Source of the DNA: Leptobrachium leishanense
Lineage: Eukaryota; Chordata; Amphibia; Anura; Megophryidae
Length of the DNA: 64,000 bases
Assembly: GCA_009667805.1 (NCBI GenBank)
Contig: CM019064.1
Coordinates: 111,264,328-111,328,327 of the forward strand
Reading direction: 5' to 3'
Shown in pieces: positions 5,356-63,741 of this stretch. Every line of letters begins with the position of its first letter. Positions within the stretch are counted from its first letter, which is position 1. The notes under the pieces are model-generated. The model had not been told where the DNA came from. It made no database searches and worked only from the letters and a program-made list of their open reading frames with translations. Position numbers and translations under genes: made by a program.

Positions 5356-5761
5356 CTGAAGTTAGATAGGAATCACATACACATGAAAATAATGATAAAT
5401 GAGTGGATGAGAGCAATTTACTGCCAACAGAAATATATGTCATGTTTTACGAAGAAAAAAGTATCTTTAGATTGTAATATGCATAAAATGAGAACGAGAG
5501 TTGGCTTGAGTTGTAATACTGGTTCCTTCACCAGGGATTTTTCTAAAACAAAATATATTTAGATCTATTTTTTTTTTTACCAAAATTCTATATTAGCATG
5601 ACTTTTCTGGCAATAAAAAATATTCATTTTTATTATGCAATAAAAATAGCTTTGTTAGAATTCTTTTAAAAAAAATTTACCTTCCCTAACACAATGTAAT
5701 TCAACACATTGTCAGATGCCAAAAAAAGAAACAATGTAAAACATATATCCATTTCATTTAC

Positions 5762-5967
5762 CCCTTCAGTTGTCTTCCTCCGTTTCTTCTTAGCTGGAAC
5801 GACAGATTTAGCATTGGCAGTCCAGCTCCAAAACACTTTGTAATGGTGTACAGGAATATCAGGTTCCTCTTGCAGATCCCATATAATCTTAGCTGTCACA
5901 GTCCCATCGCTGATAATGGTGGTATTTGCAAGTTTTAAGTTGGTTGGTGCCAGCGGGGCGGATGGAT
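5762..5967 (-). CDS. ANOS1: ANOS1 exon: FN3-2, first half
   Basis: This 206-base exon (phase 1 in, phase 0 out) has acceptor gatattgcag and donor GGG|gtaaat. It encodes 68 residues starting [10 protein letters not shown] and ending KTTEG. It covers the first strands of FN3-2: [18 protein letters not shown] is the B-C strand region and KVFWSW the C' strand. A strongly basic run, KKKRRK near the end, is a known anosmin-1 feature thought to bind heparan sulfate. An NTT sequon (residues 14-16) could be glycosylated. The intron to the next exon is only 406 bp, the shortest here, so this domain is effectively a compact unit. Confidence 0.97.
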
Positions 5968-6357
5968 CTGCAATATCAAAGTAATGTTATTTCTTATATG
6001 CTGCTTAATCTATGCTGTGGAATTTATTCTAAGATTAAATTGTCTTTTTAATAATTACTGGTAATAATTTTACTTAATTTATTAATCTAATCATAATTAG
6101 TATGCAGTCCATTGGGAATCTCCAGTCCACAAACATGTGGGTCACATATGTATGAGTTTCAGAAGGGTATATAAAGATAACCTACACGTTTGATCAGGGA
6201 CCGTGGTACCCACTGATGTTTTGAGACTACATTTCCCATGACACCTATCTTCTTAAAGGAGTATCTGAAAATATATTTCCATATTGTTCCAAACAATGTA
6301 GTGGCAAAGTCATGCGCCTATTCACTTTAGTTTTACATGTGTTGAAACCTTCTAGAT

Positions 6358-7066: not shown

Positions 7067-7300
7067 TGGCTTTGACCAGTTGCATAACCTTATCTCTGCT
7101 AGAAAGACATAGTATGGCATAGCATTGATTTTAGGGTTTTGTGTAATAACAGATCCAGGATGCAGAAAAGTGAGACAGAGGTCATTTGCATATCCTACCC
7201 AGAATTCCTTGCTGCATATGGGGAATGTGGCACAGGAACTCTGGGATGCAATTCTTTGAATTGCTGTGATGTGCAGGTGGCTTCTGCAATAATAAACACA
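7067..7300 (+). mobile_element. Ribozyme-family repeat body, ribozyme absent
   Basis: It is nearly colinear with 22251-22485, starting TGGCTTTGACCAGTTGCAT and ending AATAATAAACACA. Homology begins seven bases after the predicted ribozyme cleavage position of the intact copy, so this copy lacks the hammerhead. It includes octamer ATTTGCAT (7184-7191) followed by CCTACCCAGAATTCC. Confidence 0.8.
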
Positions 7301-7331
<31 letters not shown>

Positions 7332-17852: not shown

Positions 17853-18897
17853 TTATGGTTATTATCTGATACCTACCATCTAGCCCCCCTTAACTTAACT
17901 ATATGCTAACTGCGGTCCCCCTCATCCACTCCTCAACAATGAAGATAAGTAATACTAATTTTCCAGCCATGAGAATATGCACGCAGTCATCTCAACTCTC
18001 ACACTGAGTGGGGGGCTATATTGCTTAGCACAGCCATCTTTTTTTCCTGAAAGTTACACCCATTAGCGGTTCACACGTATATTTCAGTGATGTGATGCAT
18101 TGTGATGTTCTACTCATGCCAGGGTGGCTCCCACAATGTACATATTGCTTCCTAGTAAATTACAGCCACTGTTTTTATAAGTATTCTACATTGTAACTGG
18201 ATGTATGTTTGACCGTCTCATAGATTGACTATACTGTTTAACCATGTATTGCACACTGGTTTCTAAATCAGAACCCTGCTGCTTAGATACAGACATTTAG
18301 ATGGATGACTATGCCTTGCAATGAGGAAACACTTTAGTTTAACAAGACATTTGTTGCCGAATGTCATAACAAATACTATCTTTACATTTTACATCTGTAG
18401 CCTATTCAATTTGGCCCAGTGCTAAAAATAAATCTCTTTACTCGGTGGATACGTTTCCTTGATAATTGAGCCTTGCTCGTGAAATGTATTGATTCTTGCT
18501 TGTGTTCACAATTAATTGTTAACTGGTTCCTTTTGAGGCTAGATAATGGGGAATGGAGCTGCTGATTTATGCTAACATCCTGACCCGGCTTTTATTTGAA
18601 TTGACTAAGTCAGAACGTTTCCTGAAACCATGATTAATAACATAATATGAATTATTAGACAGAGTGTTTTTTAGAGGATATAATACTGATTCTGTTACCA
18701 TGGTAAATGTTGTTTGTATTATTATTTAAACTCTTAAACAAATCAAAATTACTATTTCCTTTTTAGTCAATACCAAAAGGAAAAGCTGACACCTGAAGAC
18801 ATTAAACATAGAAAGATTTACATTGATTAAGGACTTGTTGCATTGCTAAGAGACCTCACAATTAAAACACTAAGCCTAACATATATCTAATAAAGTT

Positions 18898-19150
18898 TAT
18901 TAATTGTAGAAAACATTTACACATCCCAGCAATTCGGAGAACTGTTTCACAGAGCTCCTGTGCCACATTACCCATATGCAGCAAGGAACTCTGGGTAGGA
19001 CATGCAAGTGAAGTCTCCAATTTCCCGCTATTTCACATCTTGGGTCTGTTTTAATACAGAACCCTCCTTGCCAGTGCCATGCCATACTGGTTGGCGTTTT
19101 AGAAATGGTCAGGTTATGCAACGAGTCACAGTCACTCCTGGACAGTTTCC
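18898..19150 (-). mobile_element. Ribozyme-family repeat, decayed copy
   Basis: On the minus strand it reads GGAAACTGTCCAGGAGTG (19150-19133), matching the end of the hammerhead in the intact copy, then GTTGCATAACC, then the octamer-like CTTGCATG, CCTACCCAG and GCATATG segments, ending in TTAATAAA. The ribozyme core and stem II are lost. Confidence 0.7.
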
Positions 19151-19512: not shown

Positions 19513-20895
19513 GCTGAGGCATATCCATAAACTGCTGGGGCATATCCATGAGCTGCTGGGGCATATCCATGAGCTGGGGCAGTATCCATGAGCTGGGGCA
19601 TATCCATGAGCTGAGGCATATCCATGAGCTGAGGCAGTATCCATGAGCTGGGGCAATATCCATGAGCTGGGGCAATATCCATGAGCTGGGGCATATCCAT
19701 GAGCTGGGGGCAGTATCCATGAGCTGGGGGCAGTATCCATGAGCTGGGGCAATATCCATGAGCTGGGGGCATATCCATGAACTGGGGCATATCCATGAGC
19801 TGGGGCATATCCATGAGCTGGGGCATATCCATGAGCTGAGGCAGTATCCATGAGCTGGGGCATATCCATGATTTGGGGCAATATCCATGAGCTGGGGGCA
19901 GTATCCATGAGCTGGGGCAATATCCATGAGCTGGGGCAATATCCATGAGCTGGGGCATTATCCATGAGCTGGGGCAGTATATCCATGTGCTGGGGCAGTA
20001 TATCCATGTGCTGGGGGCAGTATATCCACGTGCTGGGGCAGTATATCCACGTGCTGGGGGCAGTATATCCATGTGCTGGGGGCAGTATATCCATGTGCTG
20101 GGGCAGTATATCCATGAGCTGGGGCAGTATATCCATGAGCTGGGGCAATATCCATGAGCTGGGGGCAATATCCACGAGCTGGGGGCATTATCCACGAGCT
20201 GGGGGCATTATCCATGAGCAGGGGCAATATCCATGAGCTGCTGGAGCAGTATATCCATGAGCTGGGGCAATATCCATGAGCTGGGGCATTATCCATGAGC
20301 TGGGGCATTATCCATGAGCTGGGGCATTATCCACGAGCTGCTGGGGCAGTATATCCATGTGCTGGGGCAGTATATCCATGAGTTGGGGCAGTATATCCAT
20401 GAGCTGGGGCCATTATCCATGAGCTGGGGCATATCCATGAGCTGCTGGGGCAGTATCCATGAGCTGGGGCAGTATATCCATGAGCTGGGGCATTATCCAT
20501 GAGCTGGGGCATATCCATGAGCTGGGGCATATCCATGAGCTGGGGCATATCCATGAGCTGGTGCATATCCATGAGCTGGGGCAATATCAATGAGCTGGGG
20601 CAATATCAATGAGAGGAGCTGGGGCAAAATCCATGAGAGGAGCTGGGGCAATATCCATGAGAGCAGCTGGGGCAGTATCCATGAGAGCTGGGGCAATATA
20701 CCCATGTGTGAGCTGAGGCGCAATATATCCATATGTGAGCTGGGGCAATATAGATCCATGGGTGAGCTGCTGGGGGCAATATATAACTGTGAACTGGGGC
20801 AATATATCCATATGTGAGCTGGGGGCTATATATATCCATGGGTGAGCTGCTGGGGGCAATATATCCAGAGCTGCTGGGGGCAATATATATCCATG
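19513..20895. repeat. Minisatellite, 18-23-bp unit
   Basis: About 60-70 copies of a unit close to CCATGAGCTGGGGCAGTAT vary by single bases and by TA/GTA insertions. Right-hand variants contain GAGAG or GTGTG (20600-20890), a gradient of unit types. Open frames through it are a by-product of unit length and base content. Confidence 0.95.
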
Positions 20896-21147
20896 TGTGC
20901 TTTCATGGCCTTCGAACAGGCACTGTACTTGCTGGCAGTTGGCAAAAATTTGTGTGAGCATATGAGAGAGCTCCACAGCAATAAACCTCACAGTAATGTG
21001 CGCTGTGTGTATGAGCATTCAGTGTTATATGGGAGTACTGATTTAGGAGTAAGAGTAGTTAAAAAAAAATCCGTAAAACTCGGGGGGGTGACACCATAAG
21101 TTACCGCACCGGGTGACACCAACCCTAGTGACGCCACTGCATAGGAG

Positions 21148-21290: not shown

Positions 21291-22200
21291 TAATAGTTAC
21301 TGTAGGGTTAGAAATGAAGGTTAGGTTTAGGGCTAGAGTTCCAAATTAGGTTTAGGGGTAGAAATTAAGTTGAGGGGTCGCTAGAGTTAGAAATTCTACA
21401 GTTCTGATTGCCAGGTATTTTAAAGTTAATAACAATAACAACACTTTTTGTAAACGCTACTGTTGTGGATGACATCAAAATCCCACGGATTAGTGTTGGA
21501 GCACTCAGAACTTTACTTTGTTGATGCTGTGTCAGGAGTGTGCCCTCTTTCCTTTCTAGTTAATCTCTGAGCGTCATAAATTTTTTTACACACCTGTGTT
21601 TACTGTCCACAGATCTTACAATGTGACTAGTATGATGTCAGCAGGAACATCTCAAAATATCGTATTGAGTGATTGTACAAAACAAAAAATGACTATTAAA
21701 TGACTTTAACAAAGCGTGACGTAAATACCACACTTCCATTACCTGTTTTATTTAGCTAGTAAACAGGACAAACAATAAAAAGATCAGTTCTTTTGAAAAG
21801 ACCACTCCCATCTTACAATTTGTAACATTTAACCCAGGCACTTAGAACTGGAAAAACTAGTAACTAAAAGGTGAACTGTCAGTTGATAGTATAACAGTCA
21901 AAACAGCCTGTGAGAGATATAAGAACACAGTCATTTTTTGGAATAAAAGAGACATATTCCTTTGTTCAACACATGACATCCAGACATAAAAGCAAGTGTC
22001 TTAGCTTAAGCTTGTAACTAAGTATATTGTACATCATCACCATGTTGCTATTTGTATATTAAAGAACATTTGTGTAACATTATAGGAAACATGAAACAAG
22101 TGGAGTGATCTGCTGGAAGGCTATATATATAACCCTTGTAGATACTGATCTGCCCTACGGGTCCCAAGCATCCACTGCAACTGGTGTTCATCATGCCTAG

Positions 22201-22250
22201 CTCCTAGCTGAAGAGGGTCCAACAAACCTGAAACAGCGCTGTCCTAGGAG
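22201..22250 (+). ncRNA. Hammerhead ribozyme, type I, complete core
   Basis: Stem I: CTCCTAG (22201-22207) pairs perfectly with CTAGGAG (22244-22250). Core: CTGAAGA (22208-22214, the allowed CUGANGA). Stem II: GGGT/ACCT (22215-22218, 22226-22229) with a 7-base loop and one G-U pair. GAA is at 22230-22232. Stem III: ACAGC/GCTGT (22233-22242), loopless. The cleavable C is 22243, so self-cleavage is predicted between 22243 and 22244. All invariant residues are present. A loopless stem III generally needs two copies or a dimer for best activity (known for minimal hammerheads). Confidence 0.85.
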
Positions 22251-22368
22251 TGGCTTTGACCAGTTGCATAAACCTTATCTCTGCTAGAAAGCCACAGTGT
22301 GGCATAGCATTGATTTTAGGGTTCTGTGTAATACCAGACCCAGGATGCAAAAAAGTGAGACAGATGTA

Positions 22369-22393
22369 ATTTGCATATCCTACCCAGAATTCC
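22369..22393 (+). promoter_or_regulatory. Octamer plus SPH/Staf-like motif
   Basis: ATTTGCAT (22369-22376) is followed by TACCCAGAATTCC (22381-22393). Octamer plus SPH is the enhancer pair of vertebrate snRNA-type promoters (known). Its conservation in copy 7067-7300 suggests this repeat may carry its own transcription signal (inference). Confidence 0.35.
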
Positions 22394-23112
22394 TTGCTGC
22401 ATATGGTGAATGTGGCACAGGAGCTCTGGGATGCAATTCATCGAATTGCTGTGATGTGCAAGTGGCTTCTGCAATAATAAACACACTTATTATAGTGTGG
22501 AGGCTTTTTATCTCACTTTTTGTCCTCCACCACAACCCTTATATATGTAAATTCCAGACAGTTCTGCACTCAGAGGTCCCAAATGCTTCTCCATTGCTTT
22601 AGCATTAGTACAGAGCCCCGGCGGTGCCACGTGCCAAAAATTTCTTAATTCGAGCGCACAATGTGTTAAATCGTGCGCACGTCCTATCAGAATGAGGGAT
22701 CGTTTTAAGCCTTCGCGTGCGCGTGAGAAAGCTCCGTACTCCCACCTCAGCCAGAGCTGTAGCCACTCAAAGCTCTCCCTGGCCGGCTGCAGGTGAGTGT
22801 TAAGAGCCCTGAAAGACCCTTGCCTTAGCAACCAGAGCTGGTGGCTCAGCCCATTATCGTCCCTGTTTGGCATGCATGAAGTCCCTGGATTGATACCCTG
22901 CATGGCCATAGTAATTTTATTTTTTTTCAAATATACTTCTCCCTGTGCTTTTATAAATATTCATAATGCTGCTATTGTAAGAAGATTGTAATATGAATAA
23001 TAGCAGCATTATAATAATATTAGGATTATATATATATACCCTCAGATCCAAAAAATCTTGCACTCCCTTAAGCCAAAAAAACAGCAAAAAAGGTTAATAC
23101 ACCAGTGCAGAT

Positions 23113-26086: not shown

Positions 26087-26180
26087 CTAGTTAAAAAAAA
26101 ATTGAAATAAAAAAACCCATAAGTGACGTTATCATTCGTTCTAACGTCTCCATTGACACCTTATTTATGGTATGCTCTTA

Positions 26181-26599
26181 GGCTGGGGTCAGACCAGCGC
26201 ACTTTTAACGTGCGTTCTGGCGCACATAATCACGGCCGCACTAGCAGCAGATGACGGGCAATGGCGGCCAATATACGATGTGCGGCCGCACAAAAGTGCA
26301 ATGCAAGTGGAATTTGAACGCATTTTTCTGAGAACGCTGAACCGCTAGTACTGACGTACTGAGTGCGCAGCTGCGGCATAGCGGCGTGTTTGCGTGATTA
26401 GGAGATGTCAGACGCTGCTAATGTCCGGCCAACATAACGTCCAGACGCAAAAAGTGTTTTATTGACGATCCGTACAAAATCACGCCCGCAAATGCGCGTC
26501 GTCTGCCTGTTTTTGCGCATTCCGTGAAAAAATACGTCAATGCGTTCGGACGCACTTTTTCACGTTCGCGGGGAAAAATGCTTTCGTCTGACCCTAGCC
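26181..26599. mobile_element. Harbinger-like MITE, TTA TSD, copy 1
   Basis: The ends GGCTGGGGTCAGAC and GTCTGACCCTAGCC are inverted. TTA flanks both sides. The body is rich in CG dinucleotides and GCGCAC words. It is about 419 bp and lies 95 bp from the acceptor of the ANOS1 exon at 25957-26086. Copies are at 30745 and 61631. Confidence 0.85.
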
Positions 26600-27403
26600 T
26601 TATTGTGTATGGAAAACGAAAGGCAATGAAGTCGACTTTTCTTGTAGATACATTAATTATTGACTAAAAAAGTCCACTTTGTATCAAGTGTTTAATTTAC
26701 AATGTAATATAGTGAAATCGTTTGACAATGCGCCAGATTCAACCATGTTGCCGTAACTTGAAAATTAATTTTTCCTCGCTGAATTTCTTCGTATACTGAA
26801 TGCATCTGCATGAATACACAAAATTGATAACTCAAGCTCCCTGACCTGAAAAATACCATGCGTAGTCTTAAAATATTCTTGTAGTGCTTCCATATAATTT
26901 TTAGTTTAGGAGAAAGCCACTTATAGCTCCCAATGAATAAAATAGAGGTTTATTAATAGAATGCCTCTCTCTTATTATTTCAGTCTCTCCTTCCAAACAT
27001 CACTGCTCAGAATTTATTTAGTTTGGCATTAATGATGAAGCTCGCTCTTTGCAATGGCTATACTGCAAAATTCTATTCAATAACCCAATTAGTTTATTGT
27101 ATTTTTTGGGCCCCACAAGCTCTAAAAAAATACTGGAGCATAGGAATAACGGAAATATTTAAACATCATCATGCTATTCACAAATACTCCAACAAAAAAG
27201 GCTTCCAGGTGTGCTCCTTTGCAAATCAATACTAAACCCTTTGTTGCAGAGCTATTTAACCCGTCACGTGTGCTGAGCTTTTTTTTTCGAATTGTTTTGC
27301 TTTTTTGTTTAATCATTATTTGAATTCATATTTTATTATAGGACCCAGACAATTAAAAAAAAAAATCAGCAAACTAAGCAAATTCAAAATATATTATAAC
27401 TAT

Positions 27404-34100: not shown

Positions 34101-35137
34101 CAATTGGTACTCTCTGTTACAAACCCTATTGTGTGAGTCGTTTTGTCAGAATCTTGACTTGTAATAAGAAGAAGCTGCTAACAGATATTGGAGTTACACT
34201 GAGCGCCACTGCTGGTATCCTTTCCTAGATTCCAAGTAGGGATGGGCCTAACTCGCTCGAGTTCAGTTCGCCGTCGAACCCAAACAATACCCAAAGTTCG
34301 CGTTCCTTTTCGAACATAGTTCAAATCCAATGCAAGTCAATGGGACTCGAACGTTCGTTTTTTAGAGTGCCCTCCAAGAGGGCATATATGCAAGATATTT
34401 GCCATAAAAGGTGTATGGGGGTCCGGGTAGTGCCCTGGGGGACAGGAAATAAGGAAAAAAGTTTTAAAAAAAAGTTTTTAAAGGAACAGTGAGTTTTCCG
34501 TGAAATAAGGGTTAAAAATAAAATAGAAAAATTCCTTCAAATATTGTGCCTAGGAGGTCCCGATAACCTGCCCGTGAAGTGGCAGATTTTTCGGATGTAT
34601 AGAAATATGTAAAAAACAAAAATGACATTTCAAATGACGGTAAATGGTTTTCCTTTAATCTATCCATAAACAACTGCTTGGGGCAGCAGTCTGTATGAAA
34701 AGAGGAGACATTTTAGGACACGCAGAACAAGTTTAGTGATTTTTTGGCTAAATTATTATGAAACTTATGCAGGTTTTGGATGAAAGTAACAATAGGTGCT
34801 TTAAAATTGGGCCTTTAGAGTCATTAACAGTGCCGTCACACAGTAACCCCTCTGAGGATATGAATCTGGTACAAGCATCAGTGGCAGTGCACCTAAATAT
34901 TGTGCCTTTGGTGGCAGGCAAGCAAGTGCCATCATACAGTAACCCCTCTGTGGTATTGTGGAAGAGTGCAGGGGTGGACCATGCGGTCCTATATTAAAAA
35001 GATGTGAATCTGGTACAGGCGTCAGTGGCAGTGCACTCAAATATTGTGCCTTTGGTGGCAGGCCAGCAAGTGCCATCATACAGTAACCCCTCTGTGGTAT
35101 TGTAGAAGAGTGCAGGGGTGGACCATGCGGTCCTATA

Positions 35138-36448
35138 TTAAAAAGATATGAATCTGATAAAGGCGTCAGTGCACCCAAATATTGTGCCTTTGGTGGCAGA
35201 AAGTGCCATCATACAGTAACCCCTCTGTGGTATTGTGGAAGAGTGCAGGGGTGGACCATGCGGTCCTATATTAAAAAGATATGAATCTGGTAAAGGCGTC
35301 AGTGCACCCAAATATTGTGCATGGGAATGGTTGGGAATATAATTTTTCTTACGCTGCAGCAGCTGGGGCAACAAAATCTGAGTGCGTAAATCTGCAGCTG
35401 GTGATGGGATGATGTCACATTCTGAGGGAGGACCTGGTACACCCATTACTGTAGCATCATCCCGGTCAGTGGAGGTTGGAGTTAATGACATGGCAGGACA
35501 TATAGTGGGGGTAGAGACAGGTGAGGGGGACCTATGCAAAGTGTTGCACCAACGGGATGCGAGCCAGGTGGTCATTTGTCGCCTCAAGCACGTGGTACCC
35601 AAGCGTCCGGTGTCTTTCCCATGCTTGACCCTCTTCTCACATAGCTTACAAATAGCAACGCTGCGGTTTGCTGCACATTTCGTGAAGAACTCCCAGACAG
35701 CAGAGTACCCGGACGTGTGCTGCGAGACAACAGTGCTCTGCACCGGAGCAGCTCTGACATCTGATGTCTTGGACTGGCTACGGTTGGTAATAGAGGTCGT
35801 TGTGCCTCGTTTTTGTTGTGCTTCCTCCTCCTCCTCACTTGACTCCTCTATTCGATCAGGCACCCAGGTGGAGTCAGTGACCTCATCATCGTCATCACCC
35901 GCTATCTCCTTGTCACTGGAGCCAACCTGGCAGTATGCTGCAGCTGCTGGGGCAAAATGAGTGCCAGTTGTTTGTGTGTCACTGCTGGCACCCCCTCCCT
36001 CTAGGCTAATTTTACTCCCTTCCTCAACCTCAGAGTTTGAATCAGAGCACTGGAGTTGCTGCGCAACCTCATACAGCATGTCACTGTCATTGTAGTCAAA
36101 CAATTCAGCTGACTCCTCCGTGTATGGTAGTGAGGCTACGGCAGGAGTAGCTGTGGACACGGAGGATGCATTAGATGCTTTGGCAGCTGAGGTGGACTGT
36201 GAACCACTACAAGCCTGGCTGGCAGAGGACTCGGAGGATGAGGATGGCCTGGTTAGCCAATCCACCAAATCCTATGTATGTTGCTGCTGCATAATACGGG
36301 CAGCACCAGTTAGAAAGGACAAGCGTGCCCCTGCAGAGGATGCACCATGTCCACGATGACCAGGGGCACTGCATTCCGACACAGAGGCTGCTTGCCCTCT
36401 TATCTGTGTCTGGGAGCGTCTGCCTGTCCTTTTTGGTCTTTCTGACAT
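35138..36448 (-). pseudogene. BED zinc-finger gene fragment of hAT element
   Basis: The frame starts with ATG at 36448 (MSERPKRTGRRSQ), hits one in-frame TAG at 36274-36272, and is then open for about 376 codons. After a serine-rich, acidic region (EESSEEEEEAQQ), a BED-type finger follows at about 35560-35700: AVWEFFTKCA, CKLCEKRV, then the C-terminal part, where the expected histidine reads W (MTTWL). BED fingers are the DNA-binding N-terminus of hAT transposases (known). After it the frame runs into repeat sequence (GALTPLPDSY) and ends without RNase-H-like or dimerisation domains. Confidence 0.8.
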
Positions 36449-38379: not shown

Positions 38380-38847
38380 TTACTTTCTATTACAAGTTAC
38401 GTTTTAATTCATTACCATACATTGTTATTTCCTTTGTCCCATAACAGATATGTATGTTCTATACTTCGGCATTAGTGACTTATGGCACAAAAAATTTATA
38501 TAGTAACGTGGTTAATCAGTAAGAGACAGTGTATGTCAAATTTGCAAACAATTGCAGAAATCTGAGATGTTGCAATAATGACAAACACCGGCATTTCAAA
38601 AAAAGAAAAATCCAAGCAGCCACAGGTAAAGCTTCGCAATGAAACTTTTACTGCTGTTGATTGGATTTTCCTTTTTTGAATCATCTGAGTTTGTCGCAAT
38701 TGCAACAACAGTGATTTTCAGCGATGGTGACAACTTCAGCAAACACCGGTACTTTCTGACTATCCCCCTAATTATCCGACTGACTATATTATTTGCATAA
38801 TATGAAATAGCCAACCTAAAAGTTAAAAATAACATAGTTATAATGAC

Positions 38848-39032
38848 CTGCGTGATGGTTTGCCAACTGCTTGCATCATCTTCACTTGGATGGATGCCAT
38901 AATTCCATCGTCTCTGCACAACATAGATCACTGGCTCTACTGAAATGTTAAATTTCGAAGACCATCTAATATCGAGATTTCCAGGATGTGGCTCACTGAA
39001 TGTCAGTTCTTTCCTTGGCTTCAAAGGGACAC
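38848..39032 (-). CDS. ANOS1: ANOS1 exon: FN3-1, first half
   Basis: This 185-base exon (phase 1 in, phase 0 out) has acceptor gtcttttag and donor CAG|gtcatt; the donor is weaker than the others. It encodes 61 residues beginning [11 protein letters not shown] and ending SSWQTITQ. This is the A-to-C/D strand half of the first FN3 domain, which with the WAP domain forms the minimal FGFR1- and heparin-interacting part of anosmin-1 (known). Visible landmarks are the IRWSSKFN strand with an NIS glycosylation sequon, the [12 protein letters not shown] core strand, and the acidic SEDD loop. The arginine-rich RKEL and QRRW patches fit a heparan-sulfate-binding surface. The second half of the domain is 12.8 kb downstream. 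Confidence 0.97.
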
Positions 39033-42001
39033 CTAAAAGACAGAAAACAGACTATCATATAAATTATATCCTCATCACGTCCAATGAGCAGGTATTAAAG
39101 CAAAGAGGTTACATTCAGAGGCTGAAAAGTCTGATACCAATTTTTGTAATAGTTCCTCTCCTAATTATGACTCATTAGGATAAAAATAGAACAATTTAAA
39201 AAGACATCATGAAAGACAACCTTCCGATTGGTTAAATTATCTAAATTAACAAATTAGGCTTTATCAAAGGTATGGCTCATCTGTTCTTTTCCTTAGTTTC
39301 TCTTTATGTCACAAATGATTACCTCAACGATTATTTTTATATTTTACATTCCTTGATTGTCCTTTTCCTTCCGACATACATGCTCATGATAAATAATAAA
39401 TCATGTGGCATTACATTCCCAAACAAGTTACAATTTTGGTTGCAACCAAATATACCACAACATAGCGCAAATACGTTTGTTCATTATTATTTTGCATTAT
39501 TTTCTTTCTTAAATTGCTTATTTTTTATTTTATTTTATTTATTTGATTAGAAATAGTGGGTGTTTTTTTGTCTGTTCTGTTTTTATTCGGTTCAACATTG
39601 TTGGATGAAGACACTTTTCTTTTACAAGCTCTTAACATTTTAAATGTTTGTTAAACCTATACCACTTCTACATATATTTTGAGAAAAAAGACTCAATAAA
39701 ATATGTAGCTAACAAGTTTAACATTACATAGAAATACGATGAACTGTCATTTTAAATTTGTTCTTTTTCTTAATCAATTCTTAATTGTGATGTGCAATAA
39801 TTCAGCAATTTGCATGTTCAGAAATGATACATCTGTTTACCATTAAAGTACATTGGATGCACTTGATTGGGACTTAGTAACTCAACCTCACTCTGTTGTG
39901 TAATTGTCAGCAGATGGACTCTTGAAGCACCAGGGAGGTGAGCAAGTGCATTTTAGTTTACTTCTGTAGAGCGGCGAACCATGAAATCCAAAACCAGATG
40001 CATGGAACCTACGATTTATCAGTATGGTTCTTTATATTGTGTAAATGATTCGTTTCTTTTAAACTACTCAAAAAAACAGTTCCTGAATCATGTACGAATT
40101 GATGGAAAGAAACATTATTTATATATTTCAAAAGTTTCTTTACTTTATCATTTATAAAAAATATGATATTAGAAACAGCCTCTGCTTATTATCATCGCTT
40201 TATCTTCCATCACATAATATAAACTTATTCAAAGATATTCTCTACATCATTGCATATTATAGTTTGGGAATGCAGAGATAAGCAACACGTCGCTGCCATA
40301 GCAATAGAAAAAGTAGCTCAAACGTTCTGGTGTTCATTTTGAAATCTGGGAGTGCTCAAGAATGATATATGATGTAAGTTAAGATGTGACAAAAGAATGA
40401 TGGAATTTATAGGCATATGATGGATGACTGAGGTGAAAGGAAAGGGGCATGTAATAGTTGGCTGGGTTGGAAGAGATGATGGTGACCAGAGAGGATGGGT
40501 GGATAAAGGAAAGGTGAGCGGGAGAAATAAGATGATAAATGGATTAGGAAAAGGAGGAGCGGTAATGAAGGCCTGAAGCACCTAAAGCGTAGGGCCCTTA
40601 AATTGCCTCTGATGCCAGGACGCAGGGAGGATTTTTCTAGAAGGGTTTGCAGTGTGTGTGGAGATTGAGCGGGAGTGGGGTGGGAGGAGTTACCAGGAGG
40701 GTACTTAAGGTGCGTGTGGAGAGGCTCTGCGTGCCTTTTTCTCCTGAGGTAGAGCTGTGAAAATCCCCACCCTCCCTCCCTGTTTTATTTAATTCCAGGT
40801 TGGGTTAGTTTTTCGGTAGATTATTAGTTTTGTTGGGCTCCTTTTGTCACGGCGGGCTTGTAGGCAGTGCTGGCTAGGGGTTCCTTTTTATTTAGGATAA
40901 TTTTGGTCAGATGGTTGGGAGTTGGGAAGTTTTTGTGGTTGGTTGGTTTGGAGGTGTGTTGTGGTTGTGGGGAGTCCTCTTTCAGCACTGGGTTATTGTT
41001 TTATTTTTGTTATGGAAATTTTTATGTCATGGTGGTGGGTTTATTGTGTGGAGTTTTTAGCTGTGGCCTATATATATATTATTCCACAGTTATGTGTTTG
41101 TGTATTTTTGAGTATTTATTGTCTCCCTGCATATGACTCGGTCATCAGTAGGCGACTTATGACAGCTATAGGTTGGAGAAAAGGCTAGAGAAGATGTATG
41201 GCATATGATACGACTGATGGCTGTCAACGGAGAGGAAGAATTATGGAAAGGAGAGAAAAGATTTAACAGGATTTAAAAAGTTTGCCATTGGGGAGGGTAA
41301 AACAGAAGTAGTTATATAGATGTAGGGGTATGGAGAATGGATTGTTGGGTAGGGTGCTGCATGTGGTTTACAGCTGAGGAGAGTGAAGCATTGCAGATGA
41401 TGGATGTGGACATAGGAAAAAGGGAGAGGCTGAAGATAAAAATTTGAAAAAGTTGGAAGGGAAGACGGCTATATAGCTAAAACTTGTGAAGGTTGAAGTC
41501 CCATAAAGAATGTTTGGAGAGGGATTCATTCTCCAGGTACTCTGCAATGAGATACATTGTCTGCAGTGAGTAGGCAATTCACTGTCACGGGGACACCACC
41601 ACAAGCCGAGGTGGGGCCCCATAATACGTGGATAGGAGCCTAAAAGGCAGGAGTGCTGCTGGCTGAATAGCCGACATGACTCAGCACAAACCAGAAAGGC
41701 AAAGCAAGGGTTAAGGAGAATGTCAAAACCACAGACACTCAGCAGCACAAAAAGGAAACCCTAATCTCAGAACCAGTCCTTGAAGTAGCCGGATCTACTG
41801 CTAAGGGAATAGTTTGGCTGGGTAAAGCAACACAAAATAAACCACACAGGAGCAAGGAAGGGGAAAAGCTAAAAGGAACATCCAAAATAATTTTTTGACA
41901 AGGACAAGGCAACTGGAGGTACAGACAGACGGAAAACAGGGAACTAAAAATAAACCAAACAAAACATATAAAAGAAAAAGTAACAGATCAAATACAGGCA
42001 G

Positions 42002-46104: not shown

Positions 46105-46583
46105 ATAGTTACATTTCTAATCTGATTTCTTGATTTACTGTCCTATGGTTTTTTAGTAATTATGTTTTTTCAAGCCTTTAAGTATATCACAGCGGATTCT
46201 CCACTGTAGGAAAAGCTGATTTCCTTTTTGTTGTGTAGTGACATAAATGAAATTCTTAATTTTAATGTCCATGTATATCACTAATAAATGAATCCAGTTA
46301 ATTTCTAGCCGGCTCTACAACTGTTTTGTTTTATCAACAATGAGTGATTTCCCATTCTGTGTCTAATTCACTAAGCACAGCCGCACATTTAACGATTTCC
46401 ACCAAATTCTATGCTTGACAATCAGTTTCTTTTATTCAACATAATTTTTTCTGACACTAAATACATGATAAGCGCATTACTGGGTGGCTGGAACAACAAT
46501 AATTAGGTTGCAGCGGAAACTCTTGTGTTACACTTCCCATAGACTGATTTGAATGTGTAATAGCTTTTTATGACAAATCATAC

Positions 46584-46806
46584 CTTTGTAGAGATTTTTA
46601 GGTACTTGGCATGTATGACCACATCCGTTGGAACAACACTTTTTCACCCCAGAACATTCATTATCTGCATCACAACTTTCAACACAAGCAGCGGCAAATC
46701 CACTGGCTTTTTCTGGAGCCGGACAGTCTCCTTGCTTCACCGACAAGACAGATTTGAGAAACTCACAGCTGGTTAGACATTCATGGTGCTTCTTGGGAAA
46801 CAGAGG
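46584..46806 (-). CDS. ANOS1: ANOS1 exon: WAP (four-disulfide core) domain
   Basis: This 223-base exon encodes 74 codons plus one base (phase 0 in, phase 1 out). The acceptor is aactcctag and the donor AAAG|gtatga. It opens [16 protein letters not shown], finishing the cysteine-rich region. It then carries a whey acidic protein domain, starting at [13 protein letters not shown], with all eight cysteines of the four-disulfide core, including the adjacent CC pair and the closing NGCGHTC. It ends NLYK plus the first base of a glycine codon completed in the next exon. In human anosmin-1, cysteine substitutions in this domain cause Kallmann syndrome (known), and no cysteine is lost here. The WAP domain resembles antiproteases, but the splice borders show it is one module of ANOS1. 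Confidence 0.97.
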
Positions 46807-53485: not shown

Positions 53486-54062
53486 GATTTTTATCTGTGG
53501 TGGTGTGGGTACCCACTGAAAGGTAAGGCCTGACCAAGCTTTAACAGGCCTTCATGGGGCCCCTCCTAGGCCAGGGCCCTCAGGCAGTGCCCTATTGCCC
53601 TAATGATCAGTCCACGCCTGGACACTCCCTTTTTTCAATATGAATGCTCCTTACCAAAAAAATACATAAAGCTGAAATCCCAGGCACATCTCCTCTACAA
53701 AGAAGCTGCATCCTTCACTTAGTCCCTTTAGAATTTATAACCCCTTAAGCACAAGGAACCTATATTTAATTTTATGAGTAATCATCCTGTCTAACTGTTG
53801 ATTCTACAGTATCCCTAAACTGATTCCAACCTGCAATGACAGCAGATAAACCTGGATGAACTTCATTAATATCTTAGACCCACAGCAGCTGAAGAGCAAC
53901 ATGCTGTCATCTTCTTATTTGCAGCTTTTGCTGTCTCATTACTATTATTATTATTTTTCTTCTTTTTTTTTGTATTGTACAACATATTCTTCAGCGAGGT
54001 ACATGGGTAATACATAGTACATACAGGGTAGTACATAGTTATAGTACATAGAGAGGATCCTA

Positions 54063-54893
54063 TATAGAGTTACACTTGACTCTGCTCTTTCCTTCATCCC
54101 CCACATCCAGTCTCTTTCCTCCTCCTGCCGATACCAACTGCGTAATATTTCCAGAATTCGGCCATTTCTTACCGCTGTCACCACAAAACAACTCATACAC
54201 ACCCTGGTAATCTCCCGACTCAACTATTGCAATAATCTCTTATCTGGCCTCCCTCTGTCCCGCCTCTCCCCCCTACAATCCATCCTGAACGCCTCCGCCA
54301 GGCTAATTCACCTCACCCGCCGCTCTGTCTCTGCCGCTCCCCTCTGAGTCCCTTCACTGGCTCCCCATCCACTGCAGAATTAAGATCAAAATCCTTATCC
54401 TTACCTACAAAACCCTCACTAACTCAGCTCCCCACTACCTGTCCTCACTAATCACCAAATACACCCCAGCCCGCTCCCTAAGGTCAAACAGTGACCTGCG
54501 CCTAGCGTCTCCCTGCATCACCTCTTCCCATGATAGACTGCAGGGTTTCTCATGCGCAGCCCCCACTCTCTGGAACGCTCTCCCTCGTACTGTCAGACTT
54601 TCCCCCAACTTCTCTTCCTTCAAACGCTCCCTTAAAACGTTCCTATTTAGGGAAGCCTACCACCCAACTCACTGACGCAACCATCAATCACTCTCACCTT
54701 ACAGTCCTCTCCTCCTGTTTCCAACCCCAACCCTTCTAGATTGTGAGTTCCTACGGGAATAGGGCACTCATCTCCTCCTGTACTGTTTGTCAAATGTTGT
54801 TCAATGTATTGTAACCCTGTCTATACTGTGCCTATTGTACAGCGCTGCGGAATATGCTGGCGCTTTATAAATAAAGAATAATAATAATCCTGT
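54063..54893 (+). pseudogene. L2-like LINE 3' fragment (RT C-terminus)
   Basis: The first frame carries ISRLNYCNNLLSGLPLSRL and NASARLIHLTRRS. After a one-base frameshift near 54344 a second frame reads HWLPIHCRIKIKILIL, YTPARSLRS, CAAPTLWNALP and SFKRSLKTFLF. This order is the conserved C-terminus of CR1/L2/Rex-type non-LTR reverse transcriptases. The 3' UTR ends GCGCTGCGGAATATGCTGGC and (AAT)n. The 5' part of the element is missing. Confidence 0.85.
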
Positions 54894-61448: not shown

Positions 61449-61630
61449 GGATTCCTTAATATTAGGATCCTTTTTTGCAGAAGCGGGACTCTGTCCACTC
61501 CAGTCAATAGCTCTCAATATGATCATTGACACGATTAGCGTCCTTCCAGACGTAGGTAAAACCTCACCAATGAAGAGCTAGTACAGTAGTTAGTTAAGGG
61601 AATGTGAAGAAGAGGGAACAGGCACCTTAA

Positions 61631-62057
61631 GGCTGGGGTCAGACCAGCGCACTTTTAACGTGCGTTCTGGCGCACATAATTACGGCCGCACTAGCAGCAG
61701 ATGACGGGCAATGACGGCCAATATACGATGTACGGCCGCACAAAAGTCCGGCCGTGCAACGCAAGTGGAATTTGAACGCATTTTACTGAGAACGCTGAAC
61801 CGCTAGTACTGACGTAATGAGTGCGCAGCTGCGGCATAGCGGCGTGTTTGCGTGATTAGGAGATGTCAGACACTGCTAATGTCCAGCCTACATAACGTCC
61901 AGATGCAAAAAGAGTTTTATTGACGATCCGTACAAAATCACGCCCGAAAATGCTCGTCGTCTGACCGTTTTTGCACATTCCGTCAAAAAACACGTCAATG
62001 CGTTCGGACGCACTTTTTCACGTTCGCGGGGAAAAATGCTTTCGTCTGACCCTAGCC
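61631..62057. mobile_element. Harbinger-like MITE, TAA TSD, copy 3
   Basis: The ends GGCTGGGGTCAGAC and GTCTGACCCTAGCC are inverted, with TAA on both sides (61628-61630, 62058-62060). It is very similar to 26181-26599. Confidence 0.9.
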
Positions 62058-62848
62058 TAAATGGTCCTGGGTAGAGAGTGTCTTTTGAAGTATTCAGTAA
62101 AATTGACACCAGAATTCATATAATAGCAATGTATAACATATATTAAAACATACAATGAATTTACTTTCAGAAACTTCCTTTACCTGTTTTTGTATTTTAG
62201 ATTTGTGTCACTGTTTTCTGAAAATTATCCTTGTCACTTATTACTTCTACGTTCATGTCACGTATAATGTTATAAATAGTTTTACTCACCTGTTGGGATT
62301 GTGCAAGAGATTAAATAGATGGGGAGGGATAATCATGCAAATCGGGTCACGACAAGTGCCCCCAATAAAATAAGACTTTAGCAAGGTTTAAGGTAGAGGC
62401 ACTTTGATGTTTTCTTTTAAAGAAATTAAGATGAATGGTTTAAGAAATTAATTAACTAATGGAATGATAGACATTTCAGTAAGCTTTTATAGAAACCTAA
62501 AATCCAGACAGTTGTAATCTTAATTTTAATCATATTTGCACAATGATTTTGTATGTTACTCTTTAGTTAACTTGTTTTTTTTATATATATATACATGTTC
62601 TTACCATTTTGAAATCTACTAGTTTATGACTATATCTAAATCAATTTGGTATATTTAATCAAGCAATTTTCTAATTTAGCATACTTTTCCTATTTAAAAG
62701 AAGAATTTGCAGACTTTCCCAACCTTGCTAAACACCTGGGAGCTGCCATGGAAGCAGCTTGTGAAAAGCAGGAGTTGGAGAAATGACTTGGAAGTAAAGC
62801 ATATGCATATCTTTTGGGTTCTATTCTGGATGAGCAACCAAAGACATA

Positions 62849-63741
62849 GGGCTAAATTACAATCTTCGCACAAATGTTTGCGCCAGCGCAAAAACCCATT
62901 AACGCAAGGGGTAAAACCCTTTGCGCCGAATGCCGTATTCAATAGTCAGCAAACAAACGCACGTAATCTTCTACCGCGGGTGATCCTGCACGAACCCTTT
63001 GCGAGCGTACTGTACTGCACACGTCCTATACTTAACATTGTGAGCGCAAACGTGAATGTGCGCTGGTATGCGGATGGTATTACAATCTATGCGCAGGATT
63101 TAACGCATAGCCTTTGCGCGCATAATTTTAGCAACTCCTAAAAGCTGGTGTTAATGGCAAATCTGAACAACCTGGCCAAACCCAAATACACCAGCCCAAA
63201 AAAAAATGCAGCAAAGTATAGTTACACATTCTACTCATATCAAACCAATAAAACGGAGAAGTTGTGTGTGCAATTATTATTGCTGCAGCATATATGCTCT
63301 GTTTGACTTTGGCAAGCGCCATTTCTTAATGTGAGATAATTGTGGTTCTTAATTCTGATTGGCTGAAAAAAAAAAAACCAGTGCGCACACTGATTTCTGC
63401 GTACAACGGTACTGTGCGAGCATTTGTGCGTGTCCGGTTTACGCGCATTATTGCTCGACGGATGAAAAAACGCACGAGGATTGTAATTCCAGCGGTGATT
63501 TCTTAACGTGAGATAATTGTGGTTCTTAATTCTGATTGGCTGAGAAAAAAAACAGTGCGCACACTGATTTCTGCGTACAACGGTACTTTGCGAGCATTTG
63601 TGCGTGTCCGGTTTACGCGCATTATTGCTCGACGGATGAAAAAACGCACGAGGATTGTAATTCCAGCGTTGAAATGCGCGTGCAAACGTTTAAAGCTTGG
63701 CGCAAAATTTCACGCTTTGCGCGAAGATTGTAATTTAGCCT
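62849..63741. mobile_element. MITE with ATA flanks, complete copy
   Basis: GGGCTAAATTACAATCTTCG and its inverse end at 63741 enclose 893 bp. ATA lies at 62846-62848 and 63742-63744. It contains a tandem duplication (63321-63668). Family member at 846-1519. Confidence 0.8.
63321..63668. repeat. 177-bp tandem duplication inside MITE
   Basis: Copies begin at 63321 and 63498 (ATTTCTTAA...GAGATAATTG) and end at CCAGCG. Identity is very high; the A-run length and a few bases differ. The sister element at 846 has a single copy. Confidence 0.92.

Follow-up and report, generated by a model that had tools for sequence, protein, structure and literature searches.

Animal retrozymes are abundant circular RNAs, and Penelope-like elements (PLEs) have been proposed as a strong helper candidate for them, an argument made from co-occurrence and shared traits in the text available from PMC7229834. 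The vertebrate retrozymes published in that source come from axolotl, salamanders and newts, and for the axolotl families it reports that dimers cleave better than monomers. A second point of reference is the Anolis PLE (Poseidon), whose protein, according to the accessible sections of PMC11167929, initiates reverse transcription internally, at two neighbouring sites, giving rise to the genomic tail, extends both strands of the target and prefers AT-rich DNA. The same sections report that ribozyme mutants had no effect on insertion in vitro, that unprocessed RNA was apparently the main substrate, that sequencing reads neither started nor stopped at the cleavage site and that the start sites did not differ between target strands. 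Apart from the last, these results speak against a need for cleavage or circles, at least in that PLE.

We analysed a stretch of 64,000 nucleotides of the Leptobrachium leishanense genome (the window; coordinates without a prefix are window positions) in which a sequence-only reading had noticed a hammerhead ribozyme. Judging from sequence, we are rather confident that this motif belongs, as its ribozyme, to one copy of a metazoan non-LTR retrozyme whose unit spans ≈398 nt and whose cycle is PLE-driven. By the same evidence the family is a new one, of a kind (the metazoan non-LTR retrozymes) that has already been published.

The axolotl families Rtz_331 and Rtz_353, as far as the available text of PMC7229834 describes them, also have a type I hammerhead with a weak stem III and a palindromic tetraloop, tandem units (≈330-350 nt there), highly structured RNA and coexisting PLEs. 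Compared by description, the Leptobrachium family differs in its unit of ≈398 nt and its stem III of 3 bp (1-2 there), and dimer action, which has been shown for the axolotl families, is predicted for it. Unlike in that account of the axolotl retrozymes, insertion ends are mapped here, with arms of 0.1-2.4 units. Interspersed repeats of a frog also carry the C10orf118/RECK-like hammerheads of Xenopus tropicalis (part of PMC3088659, compared by description), and the best score of the Leptobrachium family, with HH9, is a parallel to them. That best-scoring Rfam family, RF02275 (Hammerhead_HH9), aligned over its full model; it is a conserved intronic amniote hammerhead, unlike the repeat described here, which scored 19.3 bits against a gathering threshold of 52. 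Plant LTR retrozymes are likewise non-autonomous and carry hammerheads, with a proposed circular RNA template, but differ in having type III hammerheads, LTRs, a PBS and PPT, and 4-bp TSDs (available text of PMC4918200).

Structure and setting of the hammerhead motif

The motif, a type I hammerhead with a complete core, was read directly from the plus strand at 22201-22250. Type I hammerheads are recognised by an invariant core, CUGANGA ... GAAA ... UH, in type I topology, and the window copy has all of these core letters. The sequence-only reading had placed the core, the helices and the cleavable C17 (22243), and every one of its coordinates was exact. The features of the motif and of its surroundings are as follows.

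22195 to 22254, plus strand: type I hammerhead including an outer stem I (GCC/GGC) and a UA bulge (sequence, 38-copy alignment, own covariance model)
22201 to 22207, plus strand: stem I, 5' strand, CTCCTAG (sequence, pair count)
22208 to 22214, plus strand: catalytic core CTGAAGA, with A at N7 (usual in the family: CTGATGA; sequence, alignment)
22215 to 22229, plus strand: stem II, GGGT/ACCT, with loop CCAACAA (sequence, alignment, pair count)
22230 to 22233, plus strand: core GAAA (G12 A13 A14 A15.1; sequence, alignment)
22233 to 22242, plus strand: stem III palindrome ACAGCGCTGT (sequence, computed dimer)
22243, plus strand: C17, on whose 3' side cleavage is predicted; the unit ends here, so that U1 is 22244 (motif position)
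22244 to 22250, plus strand: stem I, 3' strand, CTAGGAG (sequence, pair count)
5666 to 5986, minus strand: open frame with an ANOS1 exon, anosmin residues 269-331 (E 1.2e-30)
38596 to 39051, minus strand: open frame with an ANOS1 exon, anosmin residues 160-219 (E 1.2e-28)
46528 to 46806, minus strand: open frame with the ANOS1 WAP exon (WAP domain near 46.7 kb)

The 7 bp of stem I (CTCCTAG/CTAGGAG) become 8 with an added G22200.T22251 wobble; past the UA bulge, GCC (22195-22197) and GGC (22252-22254) form the outer stem I, which lies outside the interval first reported. Stem II pairs GGGT (22215-22218) with ACCT (22226-22229) over 4 bp, the basal one, pair 10.1-11.1, being a G.U in the window copy where the family usually has ACCC. 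Stem III had been described as loopless. This is one possible reading of ACAGCGCTGT; against it stands the alternative ACA(GCGC)TGT, a monomer form with 3 bp and a palindromic tetraloop, and in a dimer the same segment pairs over 10 bp. The three helices round the core thus amount to 8 (7 plus the wobble), 4 and 3 bp, or 15 pairs.

By our own descriptors this is the sole type I motif within the 64-kb window. We estimated the chance expectation from 1200 simulated 64-kb windows, both strands of which were searched: stem lengths of 7, 4 and 3 bp (I to III) were reached once, and the window copy's total of 15 pairs three times. An earlier null, defined differently, had yielded two less strict motifs over 150 windows and no case of 7, 3 and 4 bp. 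The motif is therefore improbable in any one window, but chance alone would produce it repeatedly in a multi-gigabase genome, and by itself it is not decisive. A covariance search had been suggested as a check, the absence of a match counting as refutation. At the gathering thresholds of Rfam no match was found in the window; a lax search of the whole window gave 28 matches, none of them a hammerhead, and a lax search of 1.1 kb gave Hammerhead_HH9 below its cut-off (E 0.082). A model built from 38 copies of the family, the window copy included, found the motif, at one place in the window, with 96.4 bits. Taking the Rfam result as refutation would mislead. On the sequence evidence, it is the repeat family presented below, rather than the motif alone, that settles the reality of the hammerhead.

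When the window copy is folded alone (22190-22265), the best fold (-21.8) is predicted to outcompete the active fold (-15.7), a misfolding, and two strands of it yield the 10-bp stem III in the computed dimer; the folding-energy model is blind to tertiary contacts, which makes both results weak evidence. The dimer is nevertheless likely to be a better active form than the monomer, by this computation and by analogy with the axolotl dimers (available text of PMC7229834), in line with what the sequence-only reading had proposed.

The motif had also been assigned to an ANOS1 intron, in antisense. This was borne out: the anosmin matches lie at 5.7-6.0 kb and 38.6-39.0 kb on the minus strand, and since these ANOS1 exons flank the motif on both sides, it is intronic and antisense to the gene.

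A dispersed family of tandem units

The 3.54-Gb genome was searched with 22244-22485 as query, and 40 of 1480 first-look candidates were scored. This gave at least 42 scored family matches including the window's own, the other 41 at 95-98% identity. The 38 loci that we retrieved together cover the 41 matches besides the window's own. By these sequence matches the family has at least dozens of copies in the genome.

A lax descriptor found 20 hammerheads in the 38 retrieved loci. Among the 39 copies that span the ribozyme, the window's included, 38 were aligned and one (L024) was omitted on account of an insertion. Every core letter is kept in 24 of the 38 aligned copies, the 8-bp stem I in 20, stem II in 32 and stem III in 34, and stem positions are paired in 95.3% of cells. 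The usual sequence in the family is CTGATGA with ACCC; the window copy, with CTGAAGA and ACCT, shows two departures from it. Mean column identity over the 38 copies is 96.5% in the core against 96.3% in the surroundings, and no covariation that would prove the fold was found in the aligned copies beyond that in shuffles. A core that is no better kept and the lack of covariation indicate that the genomic copies decay neutrally, like passengers. The idea that the ribozyme is peculiar to the ANOS1 intron was thus not upheld: it belongs to one copy of a dispersed retroelement, its core is not specially conserved and it carries the two departures.

Head-to-tail tandems with a period of 398-399 are present at three loci (L009, L017 and L022). 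The combination by which retrozymes are recognised, a unit of 150-450 bp with a type I hammerhead and in tandem, is thus found here. We number positions on the 398-nt unit of L017, U1 being the base after the cleavage site. In both L017 and L022 the ribozyme region occurs in both units, and one unit of each has a missing stem I base. This unit (L017:921-1000 and L022:880-957) lacks the core-adjacent stem I base and has the ACCT form of stem II; the stem I of the neighbouring unit is the usual one. At 398 nt the unit is too short for a reverse transcriptase. Two units folded as circles are highly self-paired, about 8 SD below mononucleotide shuffles (60 for each).

Three copies of the retrozyme could be placed in the window.

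22131 to 22541, plus strand: copy A, ≈1.03 units, from U290 round the circle to U298-302 (mapped on the L017 unit)
22485 to 22494, plus strand: site 1 of the 3' ends (U242-251), directly after AATAATAAACAC; copy A reads through it
22495 to 22533, plus strand: stem-loop GTGTGGAGG ... CCTCCACCAC between the two 3'-end sites (fold)
22541 to 22546, plus strand: site 2 of the 3' ends (U298-303), the 3' end of copy A
7067 to 7309, plus strand: copy B, U8 to U251, lacking the ribozyme; its end merges with the (TA)n target
18895 to 19145, minus strand: copy C, older, 75-76% identity, U394 to U239, lacking the ribozyme

The window sequence from 22239 onward recurs at copies B and C. The alignment of copy A extends to 22546, where element and TA-rich target merge; TATATATAT lies on its left, and TA-rich sequence at both of its edges. 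The stem-loop is of modest significance (fold of 22480-22552, z -1.88, 8 of 200 shuffles as good). Metazoan non-LTR retrozymes are expressed as both linear and circular RNA, lack LTRs, a PBS and a PPT, and have target site duplications that, where they occur, exceed 4 bp. A search for target site duplications at the three copies, whose TA-rich flanks can mask such duplications, gave a 7-nt match at copy A, an 11-nt match with one mismatch at copy B, and no match in the flanks of copy C.

The window holds several other repeats. Two dispersed families are represented by 26180-26600 and 61630-62058 (94% identity) and by 853-1499 and 62856-63501 (81% identity). A long minisatellite with a 19-bp unit, ≈59 copies in its main part, occupies 19534-20899. 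At 35138-36271 on the minus strand an open frame with a BED zinc finger, which we take to be perhaps a remnant of a hAT-type transposase, overlaps a 144-bp tandem repeat (34857-35304). The segment 54045-54890, with open frames near 54045-54675, is by eye what we presume to be an L2/CR1-like LINE remnant; its tail, near 54840-54890, lies in TAAATAAAGAATAATAATAAT, and two pieces of it had no Pfam match. No tRNA was found in the window (ARAGORN, bacterial settings), and the idea of a tRNA-derived head was dropped. Searches for retrozyme relatives in viral contigs (two patterns) and genome contigs (one pattern), both in non-animal collections, found none.

The arrays give some information about their templates. 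Within arrays, 60 of 71 comparisons over 9 polymorphic sites agree (a count that has no chance control), with low agreement at site 125 (3 of 8) and site 244 (7 of 17). At U125 the units of one array differ as C and A in five of eight comparisons; the other polymorphic sites mostly agree. Over the whole unit, identity within an array averages 94.0% (unweighted mean of 16 arrays) against 92.9% between loci. Repeated reading of one template would fit the agreement of sites within arrays. The unlike units of L017 and L022 had suggested heterodimeric circles with one dead ribozyme. The within-array agreement of 60 in 71 does not support this idea; the mostly discordant sites 125 and 244 and the low identity over whole arrays are compatible with it.

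Insertion ends of the retrozyme and of Penelope-like elements

From the 38 loci and the three window copies we mapped 62 arms, dropping those cut by the edge of a locus. As the loci were picked by similarity to U1-U242, ends of primary arms before ≈U241 are hardly detectable and 5' ends are biased; the inverted arms, few in number, are free of this selection bias. The 3' ends fall at U236-252 (site 1) in 26 arms, at U289-306 (site 2) in 30 and elsewhere in six. Thus 56 of the 62 arms end at two internal sites ≈55 nt apart, against 5.5 expected under a uniform distribution, and these two sites flank the stem-loop. The 5' ends are scattered and indistinguishable from uniform (KS p 0.12), so that arms begin anywhere on the circle. 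Arm length ranges from 0.1 to 2.4 units, 26 of the 62 arms exceeding one unit, and 46 cross the cleavage boundary. Since most arms run through the cleavage site, the template must have been whole there, either never cut or cut and rejoined.

At 15 loci two arms meet head to head, their 3' ends facing away from each other. The pair uses one site each in 10 of these, site 2 twice in two, and in three one arm ends elsewhere. Of the 57 3' edges, 37 have TA/CA microsatellite-like sequence no more than 20 nt away, as do 13 of the 26 5' edges; among background stretches the figure is 53 of 1370. Locus L020, with four retrozyme arms of differing orientation and a tail-to-tail arrangement in two of these, is unlike a simple single or head-to-head insertion.

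Two adjacent 3'-end sites and extension of both target strands, two of the three marks by which we would recognise mobilisation by a PLE, were both found in the retrozyme; the third, sequence shared with the start region of a PLE of the same genome, is taken up below. Like Anolis Poseidon, as described in the available text of PMC11167929, it has two internal start sites, uses both strands and AT-rich targets, and has tandems and a hammerhead. Unlike Poseidon, it codes for no enzyme, its ribozyme has a stem III and its sites are ≈55 nt apart rather than 30-40 nt. A further difference from the accessible account of that PLE is that the two arms of the retrozyme mostly use different sites. The fit between the two-site, two-strand footprint of the retrozyme and that published for Anolis suggests spread of the PLE type.

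PLEs are also present in the Leptobrachium genome, with at least 49 GIY-YIG matches when 150 of 1534 candidates were scored. Three PLE frames were tested; all three have GIY-YIG and two have RVT_1, one of these below the Pfam cut-off. Among the matches listed, four pairs of GIY-YIG on opposite strands lay within ≈5 kb, and we retrieved all four. The four loci are all head to head, but they had been picked for opposite strands. Independently of that choice, a distal site (S2) is the end of one arm in all four, and a proximal site (S1), ≈150 nt before S2, is the end of the other arm in three; in the fourth (L064) the other arm stops ≈100 nt short of S1. The two sites thus lie ≈150 nt apart in these PLEs, compared with ≈55 nt for the retrozyme and 30-40 nt for the tail of the published PLE, and the PLE ends examined are, by eye, not within (TA)n, unlike those of the retrozyme. 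At L065:755-9144 there is a near-perfect head-to-head PLE palindrome of ≈8.4 kb with arms 99.1% identical, which is probably one insertion with two long arms, young by its identity. At L060 a PLE 3' end adjoins another repeat, and the locus was uninformative.

Little sequence is common to the two elements. The retrozyme unit had no blastn match in L047-L058, and the PLE start region and the retrozyme share a string of 12 bases, which is weak, 12 of 500 shuffles being as good. Upstream of a PLE open frame, L059:4214-4311 matches U45-U135 over 98 bp with 75% identity. We considered this as a part shared by retrozyme and PLE and rejected it, since the match falls short of the unit at both sides; it is probably an old copy, a relic, and was left out of account. 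The hammerhead descriptor found none in L062-L064 and one doubtful motif, in L054, in L047-L061.

Proposed life cycle and competing explanations

From the footprint in the sequence we infer transcription, cleavage, closure of a circle and reverse transcription by a PLE enzyme. A tandem copy would be transcribed into an oligomeric RNA, in which neighbouring ribozymes, paired through the palindromic stem III, would cleave the oligomer into units. Each unit would be circularised by a host ligase. Reverse transcription by a Penelope-like enzyme would then begin at one or other of the two sites beside the stem-loop, with both nicked strands of an AT-rich target as primers, and would cover a fraction of the circle, a full turn or a longer stretch; finally, the two cDNA arms would be connected through their 5' ends. 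The family is probably mobilised by a Penelope-like enzyme, and the insertion ends support a helper of this class rather than any particular element. We lean, with less assurance than for the retrozyme assignment as a whole, towards reading the footprint as two-site, two-strand TPRT of circular RNA by a PLE enzyme, the strands preferring different sites. The intermediate is perhaps circular; tandems of this kind would result from a multimeric linear RNA just as from a circle, and the circular step is the weaker because PLE ribozyme mutants still insert (available sections of PMC11167929) and because identity within arrays is low.

The main competitor is mobilisation by a LINE (L2/CR1-, L1- or RTE-like) in place of a PLE. 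LINEs are named as possible retrozyme helpers in the text available from PMC7229834, and the accessible part of PMC4918200 gives 15-bp LINE-like TSDs for Nematostella repeats. The presence of the L2/CR1-like remnant in the window and the ending of the retrozyme body in AATAATAAACAC would suit such a helper as well. We think it unlikely, as two 3'-end sites, both orientations and head-to-head arms are at odds with a LINE, the retrozyme 3' end does not resemble the tail of the window's LINE (by eye, and for that LINE only), and PLEs whose insertions are built alike occur in the same genome. Trimming of a SINE transcript by the hammerhead at the 5' end would explain why copies B and C start at U8 and U394, beside the cleavage site. 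It would hardly account for 5' ends spread round the whole unit, with five of 62 within 10 nt of the cleavage site against 3.1 expected, or for arms that in 46 of 62 cases span the cleavage boundary and in 26 are longer than one unit; the idea was dropped because of this scatter across the 62 arms, and we hold it to be scarcely credible.

Two further explanations concern the window copy itself. That the motif has been domesticated as an intronic regulator of ANOS1 expression, comparable to HH9 (C10orf118) and HH10 (RECK), is very improbable, even though HH9 is its best Rfam family, its position is intronic and conserved intronic hammerheads have been described (PMC3088659 and PMC6155905, in the parts available). 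The motif is antisense to ANOS1 and is one copy of a dispersed family, its core columns are no better conserved than their surroundings and it shows two departures from that family. Its many copies and antisense orientation are not those of a conserved single-locus intronic hammerhead of the HH9/HH10 type, and evidence from this one genome gave no support for a host role at ANOS1. Least credible of all is a chance hammerhead-like string. In its favour are the simulations, whose 1200 windows held one to three comparable motifs, equivalent to many in 3.5 Gb, and the lack of an Rfam match at gathering. A chance string would not recur at the same place, with its core intact, in 24 of 38 copies of a repeat, nor would four core-intact family loci, picked by hand, outscore the window copy on HH9 (22.4-26.7 against 19.3 bits). 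We thus retain the retrozyme with a PLE-driven cycle. By its sequence the ANOS1 copy is a single antisense insertion of just over one unit that is now decaying, and its ribozyme is probably a weakened relic.

A literature search, consisting mostly of titles and the openings of abstracts, with subscription literature largely outside it, found no published link between retrozyme insertion ends and the two-site signature of PLEs. If our reading is true, it would name the helper of animal retrozymes, which is left open in the available text of PMC7229834, and would also reveal that start sites are chosen by strand, a preference that is absent in vitro in the accessible sections of PMC11167929. The ANOS1 copy illustrates that an intronic ribozyme can resemble a regulatory part and yet be a mere passenger. 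Legible insertion ends of the retrozyme, beside PLEs of the same design, turn what was a guess about the helper into a matter that can be tested with a purified protein and one RNA.
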